Below are positions 53,768 to 56,702 of a stretch of DNA of 64,000 nucleotides, piece after piece. The notes beneath the pieces are model-generated. The model saw nothing but the letters and a program-made list of their open reading frames with translations, had not been told where the DNA came from and did no database searches. A program made the position numbers and the translations under genes. Source of the stretch: Thermoplasmatota archaeon (lineage in GTDB: Archaea > Thermoplasmatota > JAKEGO01). Positions within the stretch are counted from its first letter, which is position 1. The number at the start of each line of letters is the position of its first letter. The stretch covers positions 248,001 through 312,000 of the forward strand of contig JANQNK010000020.1 in assembly GCA_028279595.1 (NCBI GenBank), given 5' to 3'.

Positions 53768-54331
53768 ATGAACACGATAAGAACACTATACATCACCAGC
53801 AGGAAGGACTGGCGAAAATGGCTGGAGGAGCATTTCGAAAAAGAGAAGGAGATCTGGTTGGTGTACCCGAAGAAGGCGTCCGGTAAAGAAAGGATACCGT
53901 ACAACGATGCCGTGGAAGAAGCATTGTGCTTTGGCTGGATCGACAGCACGGTCAGATCCCTTGATGAGGACAATAGCATCCAACGTTTTACTCCAAGGAA
54001 CCCCGGAAGCACATATTCCCAGCAGAACAAGGAAAGGATGAAATGGCTCTTGGAACACAACATGATCCATTCCTCAGTTTTGGAAAAGGCGAACCAGATC
54101 GCCTCGGAGAAGTTCATTTTTCCAGAAGATATCATTGAAGCTATCAAGGAAGACGAAACGGCCTGGGCAAATTACAACAATTTTTCAGACACATATAGAA
54201 GAATTAGGATAGCTTATATTGACGCTGCACGCAAACGCCCTGACGAATTCAATAAGCGACTTAACAATTTCATCGTCAAAACCAAAAAGAATAAACAAAT
54301 AGGATTCGGTGGGATCGAGAATTATTATTGA
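53768..54331 (+). CDS. YdeI/OmpD-associated family protein
   Basis: A 187-residue cytoplasmic protein of the YdeI/OmpD-associated family, found widely in bacteria and linked to bacteriocin protection; its reaction is unknown. WRKWLEEHFEKEKEIWLVYPKK, IPYNDAVEEALCFGWIDSTV and RFTPRNPGSTYSQQNKERMKW are the family signatures and the length is normal. It starts the AT-rich island and probably arrived by transfer, since its base use differs clearly from the gene just before it. It is the only island gene with a known family. Confidence 0.88.
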   Translation: MNTIRTLYITSRKDWRKWLEEHFEKEKEIWLVYPKKASGKERIPYNDAVEEALCFGWIDSTVRSLDEDNSIQRFTPRNPGSTYSQQNKERMKWLLEHNMIHSSVLEKANQIASEKFIFPEDIIEAIKEDETAWANYNNFSDTYRRIRIAYIDAARKRPDEFNKRLNNFIVKTKKNKQIGFGGIENYY

Positions 54332-54435
54332 GTGATCTGGACGATGGAATCCACCCCGCACCACCAAACCGTTCACCATGAACGCTGGGATGAGGGAGAG
54401 GATCGAGGGTATCGTTGAATCGTAGTATGAGAGAA

Positions 54436-55221: not shown

Positions 55222-55692
55222 CTATAATTTAAACTCCTGTCGATTTCGCTCTTCGAGAATTCTAAAAGCTAGCCGTTTATCGACAGGAATACGATTTATT
55301 GCATTCCCATATGGTGTGTGTTTCTTCTGATTGAATAGAATCAGACGATCATTTGGATATCCTCGGATTGTCTCTAACCTATCGACATTTGACCATGGAA
55401 CAGTAGCTTCATGGTCTATGTAAGTAATATGCAATCCATCGATAGCAAATCCAACTCTCTCAGGTATTCTTTTAATGTTGTATCGCATAAGAAAAAAGAA
55501 ATGTAATCCGCCAAATATTGCTACGGAGAATCCTATCAAGGGGTCCTGAACGAGATCAGATCCGTAATAACCATGAACGATACCTAATAAAGCTATCGGG
55601 ATTGCGATTGCGAATGGTCCGTATACTAACAATTTTCGATAAATGTTCCGGTATTCCTCCGAGAGTTTATTATCTCGCCATCGTATTTCCAT
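55222..55692 (-). CDS. Two-helix membrane protein with PH-like domain (island copy 1)
   Basis: From the ATG at 55692 the protein has 156 residues (ORF 55701 gives three more). Two hydrophobic helices lie at about 25-45 and 55-72, followed by RVGFAIDGLHITYIDHEATVPWSNVDRLETI, which reads as a bacterial PH-like domain (strand, YxD, Trp-Ser-xx-xx). AT-rich. It is divergent from a similar protein 55811-56299. Function not known; PH-like domains after two helices occur in several uncharacterised membrane families. Confidence 0.6.
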   Translation of the reverse strand: MEIRWRDNKLSEEYRNIYRKLLVYGPFAIAIPIALLGIVHGYYGSDLVQDPLIGFSVAIFGGLHFFFLMRYNIKRIPERVGFAIDGLHITYIDHEATVPWSNVDRLETIRGYPNDRLILFNQKKHTPYGNAINRIPVDKRLAFRILEERNRQEFKL

Positions 55693-55810
55693 AGACTTCA
55701 ATTATTTATGTAATCTCAAGTTAATATTTAGAATCTTAGGTTTGGTATCCCCCACCTACGTCGCCGTGGAAGGGTATAAGTAGAGTCAGAGGGAATCGAG
55801 AGACGGGATC

Positions 55811-56299
55811 ATGAAGTGGATGGATAATGATGTCAATAGTCAATACATCTTAAGGAGGAAACGATGGAGAATATTATTTCCCGCTTCCATTTTATTCATT
55901 ATGATGATTACAGCGTTGGTCTTTTACTTGTTGGATCCGAATAGAGATATTCGGATATTTATTCCAGCAGTCTTAGTAGGTATATGGGGTGCATCGATTC
56001 AATATTATATTCAAAATTATAATGTTAATCGGATAGTAAAGAGAATTGGATTATCGAAGGAATCAATTACTCTTGACTATCATCGTAAAGAAAGATTAAT
56101 CCTACCTTTTAAGAACATAGTGAAAGTTGACACTTTGGACAACTGGAAAGATGTTTATTTTATTCAATGTAGACATCCAACCCCATCATTGTTTAAGAAG
56201 GTGTTCAATCAAGGAATGGAATACGTAGTCGTCACCAACAACATTGCATATCAAATCCAGAAGGTCTTAGCTGTAAATGGTATTTCTTCGAATGATTGA
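55811..56299 (+). CDS. Two-helix membrane protein with PH-like domain (island copy 2)
   Basis: A 162-residue relative of the protein at 55222-55692. Helices at about 20-40 (RILFPASILFIMMITALVFY) and 48-67, then RIGLSKESITLDYHRKERLILPFKNIVKVDTLDNW, matching the PH-like segment of copy 1 in layout. ATG at 55811 follows GGGATC. Very AT-rich. The divergent pair suggests a duplication. Downstream to 56702 there is no protein gene. Confidence 0.6.
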   Translation: MKWMDNDVNSQYILRRKRWRILFPASILFIMMITALVFYLLDPNRDIRIFIPAVLVGIWGASIQYYIQNYNVNRIVKRIGLSKESITLDYHRKERLILPFKNIVKVDTLDNWKDVYFIQCRHPTPSLFKKVFNQGMEYVVVTNNIAYQIQKVLAVNGISSND

Positions 56300-56369
56300 T
56301 CTATAAATTTACCTTGGTGGGGTGGGGGGTGGCGTACCCCGTTATGGCCTATGGTTTTAGCTTTGGGAG

Positions 56370-56378
56370 TATATAAAG
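56370..56378 (+). promoter_or_regulatory. TATA box before the structured non-coding region
   Basis: TATATAAAG lies about 28 bases before 56398, where a run of hairpins begins, with no protein gene downstream on this strand before 56700. Confidence 0.5.
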
Positions 56379-56397
56379 CGTTACGAAAAAAAGTTAT

Positions 56398-56620
56398 TAT
56401 CTATTACCCCCCGCGCATGGTGCGGGGGAGCGGACCGTTGATTCCACAAATCAGATACGATATGGAATCTACGGGTCAGTCGATTCCCGAAGTCAGGGAA
56501 TCGACGTCTGTTAGTCTCTTCCAGCACCACCATCTGATTCAATCTGATAGTGACGGAAAGATGGTGGTGTGAGTGCTTGGATTCGAACCACTTAATGAGA
56601 TCTTGCTCTCTGGATTAAGA
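56398..56620 (+). ncRNA. Candidate structured non-coding RNA
   Basis: Five hairpins follow one another with little spacing: a nine-pair stem CCCCCGCGC with GTGCGGGGG (56408-56428, three-base loop); an arm GATTCCA with TGGAATC (56440-56469), extended by outer pairs; a perfect ten-pair stem GTCGATTCCC with GGGAATCGAC (56479-56505); an eleven-pair stem CACCACCATCT with AGATGGTGGTG (56525-56569); and CTTAATGAGA with TCTC-TGG-ATTAAG (56591-56619). A TATA box is about 28 bases before. No long ORF fits. I could not match RNase P RNA, SRP RNA or 5S RNA. Transcription from + is inferred from the TATA box only. Confidence 0.5.
56565..56591 (-). other. tRNA 3'-end-like fragment
   Basis: On the minus strand, GTGGTTCGAATCC, then AAGCACTCAC and ACCA reads as T-loop, acceptor 3' strand, discriminator A and CCA. 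The T-stem is only partly paired and no matching 5' acceptor (GTGAGTG) or anticodon arm lies upstream. It could be a remnant of an integration site or chance similarity. It overlaps the structured region. Confidence 0.3.
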
Positions 56621-56645
56621 TAAGATTATTGGGTCGATCTGAATC

Positions 56646-56682
56646 GAAAAAAAGAAAAGACCGGGCCGGTCGAACCGGCCCG
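56646..56682 (-). terminator. Terminator of gdhA
   Basis: CGGGCCGGT and ACCGGCCCG form a nine-pair stem with a three-base loop, followed on the minus strand by a T-rich run (TTTTCTTTTTTT), about 20 bases after the gdhA stop. Confidence 0.8.
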
Positions 56683-56702
56683 AATTCTGTGGGTTGTCTC
56701 GA

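Follow-up and report, generated by a model that had tools for sequence, protein, structure and literature searches.

We propose that the hairpin-rich stretch near the end of the analysed window, 64,000 nucleotides of a Thermoplasmatota archaeon, is an orphan copy of a non-autonomous mobile DNA element of about 140 nt that inserts at tRNA 3' ends, a reading to which we give a probability of roughly 0.55. The copies are dispersed and accompanied by a target-specific duplication, as expected of non-autonomous site-specific mobile elements. The proposal draws on copies located behind tRNA genes, on tails copied from the respective tRNA, on the spacing, mixing and turnover of the resulting arrays and on pairing kept at the DNA level, and also on units with perfect tRNA-Leu tails placed between genes on contig C31 of G002, a genome of the same order.

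An earlier note had described dense hairpins behind a TATA box, and the hairpins are real. The best arms pair at 11/11 positions (56525-56535/56559-56569), followed by stems of 10/10 (56479-56488/56496-56505), 11/12 (56435-56446/56463-56474) and 7/7 pairs, the last around CCCCCGC (56408-56414/56422-56428) and extending to 9 pairs in the full fold. The fold of 56370-56640 is more stable than 200 of 200 shuffles on either strand (z -4.91 on the plus and -6.53 on the minus strand). Homologues show that the unit is naturally read on the minus strand, and the supposed promoter, TATATAAAG at 56370-56378 of the plus strand, thus lies on the wrong side; it is not common to the homologues either. The parts of the locus are as follows.

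56565-56589, minus strand: putative relic of a tRNA T-arm or 3' end (GGTTCGAATCC ... CACACCA), before the unit.
56432-56570, minus strand: family A unit with hairpins H1-H2-H3, located by cmsearch with covariance model R1.
56524-56570, minus strand: H1 palindrome CACCACCATCT / AGATGGTGGTG, starting within the tRNA-like 3' end.
About 56552-56555, minus strand: H1 loop, with the invariant CGTC.
56479-56505, minus strand: H2, GTCGATTCCC / GGGAATCGAC, with the conserved AC(G) in front.
56433-56475, minus strand: H3, CCGTAGATTCC / GGAATCAACGG, with loop CGTA here and CGTC in most other copies.
56418-56434, minus strand: tail, a copy of the tRNA-Leu 3' end, TCCGCTCCCCCGCACCA (genuine tRNA-Leu: TCCCTTCCCCCGCACCA).
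56406-56417, minus strand: partial copy of the tail in inverted orientation, immediately following.

With filters off, the unit scores 124.9 bits against R1 (E 1.2e-31), being itself one of the 16 sequences from which the model was built. H2 is intact, H1 nearly intact and H3 has one mismatch, and the closing tail matches tRNA-Leu exactly over TCCCCCGCACCA. The first hairpin of the earlier description (56406-56428) arises because the tail and its inverted copy pair. A glutamate dehydrogenase gene in the same orientation precedes the unit, and a terminator-like hairpin is found near this gene at 56661-56683. A genuine tRNA at the unit was rejected, as ARAGORN detects no tRNA gene in the window and the best tRNA alignment of the relic (31) stays below the shuffled 95% level (33); 56565-56589 is only suggestive of what may be left of a tRNA or of an array unit in front. 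The window copy is therefore an orphan, with a tRNA-Leu tail at its end and the tRNA gene gone.

The claim that the stretch holds no coding frame needs amending, as ORFs of 73 aa (56351-56572, plus strand) and 53 aa (56381-56542, minus strand) cross it; a coding function through them was rejected, since homologues conserve the hairpins rather than the reading frame. The earlier note could not match the stretch to RNase P, SRP or 5S RNA; Rfam yields 0 matches in the window at the gathering score and nothing meaningful near the unit at E<=5, and at related loci it recovers tRNA only, with the RtT RNA family unmatched.

Searching the genome from which the window comes (G000; 2.29 Mb, 21 contigs) at the DNA level revealed three further copies on contigs C7 and C14, with 76-83% identity over the matched part. 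They sit behind tRNA genes in the direction opposite to the plus-strand view taken earlier, and copies behind tRNA genes are likewise present in G001 (MAG Thermoplasmata archaeon PMV_4.75, same family). The family A model, built from 16 hand-picked units of about 140 nt with three hairpins, is positive in 13 of 293 Thermoplasmatota genomes, distributed over families f1, f2, f10, f28 and, weakly, f4; on reading, the f4 match (E 0.002, in one of the 13 genomes) was not counted as a unit. Outside Thermoplasmata, the two pattern matches that were read (L105 and L112) have neither the remainder of the unit nor a tRNA and look like chance. Searches of viral contigs for the exact patterns of family A and of family B (see below), and of phages and plasmids for element DNA, gave no match.

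For 41 of the 48 placed family A units a tRNA gene is located upstream on the same strand, either abutting or at array distance. The placement test covered the unit's own strand, and a two-strand ARAGORN listing shows the neighbouring tRNAs on that strand, together with one extra divergent tRNA at L187. The tail copy comprises roughly the last 14 nt of the tRNA, plus CCA where encoded, and 25 of the 41 units carry the tail of their own tRNA (at least 12/14 nt), compared to 51 of 984 (5%) for foreign tRNA tails. Moreover, the copy in the Arg-TCT tail retains the G-T wobble partner of its tRNA and those in the Leu-GAG tails the odd T-stem TCACAG of theirs; such reproduction of tRNA quirks indicates copying rather than selected pairing.

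Two loops of the units keep CGTC(AAT), with CGTC retained in H1 of 39 and H3 of 35 of 47 units, and AC(G) precedes H2 in 43 of 47. Double changes occur at 32/32 pairs with 94% of cells paired, a level reached in 0/500 shuffles, and sliding the structure by 1-3 columns reduces pairing to 39-46%, with the reservation that the alignment was fitted to the model structure and is hence biased towards pairing. The earlier note had named a lack of compensatory changes in homologues as grounds for abandoning a structured RNA; the covariance search found such changes at every pair.

Family A is part of a broader phenomenon. The regions 3' of the G000 tRNA genes, of most G001 tRNA genes and of a sample from G002 show, behind many tRNAs, single or multiple units of 110-165 nt, each ended by a copy of its own tRNA 3' end, and many units carry an inverted copy of that end, too. 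A strict direct-copy score is passed by 16 of 41 G000 tRNAs, and among all tRNA loci examined there are 48 with one or more near-exact copies of the 14-nt tail. Spacings between tail copies fall within 78-315 nt in 60 of 63 cases, mostly at 112-167 nt and with a mode around 140-165 nt; the other three (5.3, 10.2 and 14.5 kb) coincide with integrase-bearing insertions. The arrays hold several structural families, the window unit belonging to family A. Family B comprises GAACCC..GGGTTGTTC, a long hairpin and then a GATGATGC..GCATCATC hairpin, and mixed arrays with B followed by A are present at Leu-TAG, Leu-TAA, Gly-GCC, Gly-TCC and Arg-GCG. An intron-containing tRNA-Trp was considered for the sequence before C14a, but a family B unit explains it better; this unit is now separated from tRNA-Arg(TCG) by DNA carrying an integrase gene.

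Other families were observed at tRNA-Gln CTG (L052, L089), tRNA-Asp (L053, L087) and tRNA-Tyr (L055, L084), where the first unit of an array carries the tRNA acceptor and/or T-arm in inverted copy. As the same family is found at the same one of these tRNAs in two genera, some units look long-lived. A further repeat family behind tRNAs in G001 (L076, L077, L083, L085, L086) has the palindromes CTTTTTC..GAAAAAG and GGGACCATTCGCCC..GGGCGAATGGGCC. Distant Thermoplasmatota (L130 and L139 in G003, L144 in G007) combine a tRNA tail and an antisense T-arm with other hairpins, in shorter units at L130 and L144 (spacing 78 and 120 nt); given this shared architecture, the phenomenon probably extends beyond family A.

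Is the pairing maintained as RNA or as DNA? Structured RNAs tolerate G-U pairs and not A-C. Among 1535 family A cells we counted 1425 Watson-Crick, 18 G.T and 27 A.C combinations, compared to 30 G.T and 0 A.C in 864 acceptor-stem and T-stem cells of the tRNAs of these genomes (Fisher p about 1e-8, from counts that ignore phylogeny). A smaller family A alignment gives 3 G.T versus 12 A.C, and an aligner-free search of the array regions, covering all families, yields 110 stems (8 in shuffles) with 11 G.T and 15 A.C. As G.T is no commoner than A.C in the units and the tRNA stems stand at 30:0, the pairing looks kept as DNA and not as tRNA-sense RNA. This is evidence that the palindromes are preserved as DNA, being read as folded single strands or cruciforms, or having been perfected by template switching.

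The same counts weigh on the idea that the unit is a structured RNA, transcribed within the tRNA 3' trailer or by a promoter of its own, and acting in folded form, for instance in tRNA 3' processing. Strong folding and covariation, the position next to tRNA genes, the conserved CGTC loop motif and inverted tRNA 3' end copies that could pair with the pre-tRNA all suit such a role, but neither wobble split (18 to 27, and 3 to 12) resembles that of the tRNA stems, several unrelated families occupy the same position, and the orphan copy retains near-intact hairpins in the absence of any tRNA. With no tRNA function left to serve, those hairpins are more in keeping with a selfish or mobile element than with an RNA for tRNA processing, and we regard the RNA explanation as unlikely. 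An RNA from the antisense strand is argued against less strongly, and the 3 to 12 split leans its way. From the structured RNA proposed earlier, a conserved, structured, non-coding sequence is thus left standing, not as a free-standing RNA gene behind a promoter but as a tRNA-tail unit on the opposite strand. Template switching is also part of a scenario of local tandem duplication of tRNA 3' ends, comparable to the rtT repeats of E. coli tyrT, with palindromes perfected during replication and no transposition. Tandem units with tRNA tails are compatible with it, and Watson-Crick double changes without wobble excess are what quasi-palindrome correction predicts; however, members of one family occur behind various tRNAs and in various genomes, carrying different tails, B-A arrays are mixed and loop motifs are conserved, making this explanation the least probable of those weighed here.

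The units may alternatively be miniature derivatives or att leftovers of tyrosine-integrase elements, which use the same tRNA 3' ends, and be moved by their integrases. In the own genome, integrated elements of about 14.5 kb at tRNA-Pro(TGG) and 10.2 kb at tRNA-Ala(CGC) (L223 and L224; contigs C7 and C9) duplicate an 18-nt att core from T-loop to discriminator; an integrase gene is seen within the former and nearby on C9 for the latter. At L069 (C14), a family B-A array ending in the tail of tRNA-Arg(TCG) is found 5.3 kb on from that tRNA, with an integrase gene in the intervening DNA. Tail copies at 5.3, 10.2 and 14.5 kb from their tRNA accompany integrase-bearing insertions, and array-like hairpins and tail copies resume directly behind attR of the Pro and Ala elements, both in favor of such a derivation. 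Against it, no H1-H2-H3 ends were seen on integrase elements sharing the tRNA tail target, covarying palindromes are atypical of integrase arm sites, and tyrosine integrases, present in most carriers, were not found in G001 or G075 (both incomplete genomes). We consider this origin quite improbable.

Other candidate enzymes were similarly evaluated. Y1 transposase occurs in 1 of 8 carriers examined, reverse transcriptase in 2 of 8 (none in G000-G002) and Cas1 in 2 of 11 (none in G000, G001, G002), and none of the three is supported as a resident enzyme, being missing from most carriers. The three own-genome integrases that were scored fall far below the curated cut-offs of the XerA-type and integron integrase models, and attC cores (RYYYAAC/GTTRRRY) are at chance level (1 in 50 units versus 1.26 in shuffles). 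The folded-end mechanism outlined below is one that we infer.

For the mobile element that we favor, H1 and H3 would act as folded recombination ends, either single-stranded or as cruciforms, with H1 presumably straddling the junction between tRNA and element. A recombinase supplied in trans may then join the H1/H3 ends at the tail. Because most units end in the tail of their own tRNA, the tRNA stays intact and the target is regenerated, which in turn gives rise to tandem and mixed arrays. At the locus in the window, tRNA-Leu would have been lost, leaving a unit with a tRNA-Leu tail beside an AT-rich islet, possibly cargo. Turnover is visible within one genus at the Leu-GAG locus, which has the same gene downstream in G010 and G058 but three units in the former and two in the latter, one H3 having been replaced as a block; beyond this array turnover, neither a transposition event nor a clean empty site was seen. 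The orthologous site at the glutamate dehydrogenase gene of G001 has no unit, which proves little since the gene order differs there. Weighing against mobility are the near-exact tails in only 25 of 41 units, the matching of H1 to different tRNA ends, which insertion alone leaves unexplained, and the fact that no enzyme was found for the element.

The possible cargo at the locus in the window involves two features on the other strand.

53768-54331, plus strand: OmdA/YdeI-like ORF, 74% identical to a G002 ORF between family A units; possible cargo.
54346-54366, plus strand: second tRNA-Leu-tail-like stretch (GAATCCACCCCGCACCACC), about 15 nt past the OmdA ORF.

The 11-mer tail match of the latter is by itself not significant (1.78 expected by chance). 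Together with the tail of the window unit it bounds the AT-rich islet (35-42% GC versus about 59%). Between 54000 and 56500 the islet holds three ORFs without Pfam matches, and those at 55222-55701 (minus strand) and 55811-56299 (plus strand) are weakly related (21% identity, E 9e-9). On G002 contig C31 (L226, 1-5700), family A units that end in perfect tRNA-Leu tails alternate with the NACHT/FGE-sulfatase, GATase, OmdA and Zn-dehydrogenase genes, an arrangement that resembles a cargo-bearing cassette array. Across the phylum, close relatives of OmdA have a patchy distribution, and the link of OmdA to family A units at two loci is only suggestive. One may go further and envisage an integron-like system with tRNA 3' ends as platform, folded palindromic units as sites read by a recombinase and genes as cassettes, of which the window unit and the islet would be a remnant and in which the OmdA-like protein, the Zn-dehydrogenase and possibly the NACHT/FGE protein of G002 would be cassettes; we hold this to be doubtful.

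Comparison to known systems reveals partial likenesses throughout. The rtT repeats of E. coli tyrT (Rfam RtT RNA) follow a tRNA gene immediately as a tandem series, with about 150-180 bp per repeat and a piece of the tRNA 3' end in each. The units described here likewise form tandem series behind tRNA genes and contain tRNA 3' copies, but they are archaeal, occur behind many tRNAs in many genomes and in several families, have covarying palindromes and show no RtT RNA family homology in Rfam. Integron attC sites resemble them in a folded structure conserved over sequence and in polar tandem arrays, with some units between genes (L226); the units differ in their three hairpins, tRNA tail and tRNA end as target, and the three own-genome integrases scored fall far short of the IntI cut-off. 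In casposon and CRISPR-type integration, too, a 14-15 bp target is duplicated and insertion proceeds in tandem next to one side of the site, and the M. mazei casposon reportedly targets a site resembling tRNA-Leu (PMC10359463); however, most carriers lack Cas1 and no casposon-type terminal inverted repeats were identified in the units. The units recall IS200/IS605 PATE/REP elements and single-strand transposition in having subterminal hairpins whose loops share a motif on one strand, whereas Y1 transposase is missing from 7/8 carriers and the tRNA tail is duplicated here. Archaeal tyrosine-integrase elements that target tRNAs have been reviewed (PMC8371274) and share the target, with the tRNA 3' end restored and duplicated, but the units are about 140 nt, non-coding, palindromic and arrayed. 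No description of such tRNA-tail arrays was found in the literature searched, subscription papers being mostly outside it; provisionally, this family of palindromic tRNA-tail elements in Thermoplasmatota therefore appears undescribed so far.

In conclusion, many tRNA genes of an archaeal lineage are equipped with self-regenerating palindromic tails. The wobble test, G.T versus A.C, is a cheap filter that can be used by others, and if the units are not mobile sites, their strong covariation without an RNA is a warning for RNA discovery by covariation only. If they are mobile sites read by structure, they represent a recombination system that spares tRNA genes and may move genes.
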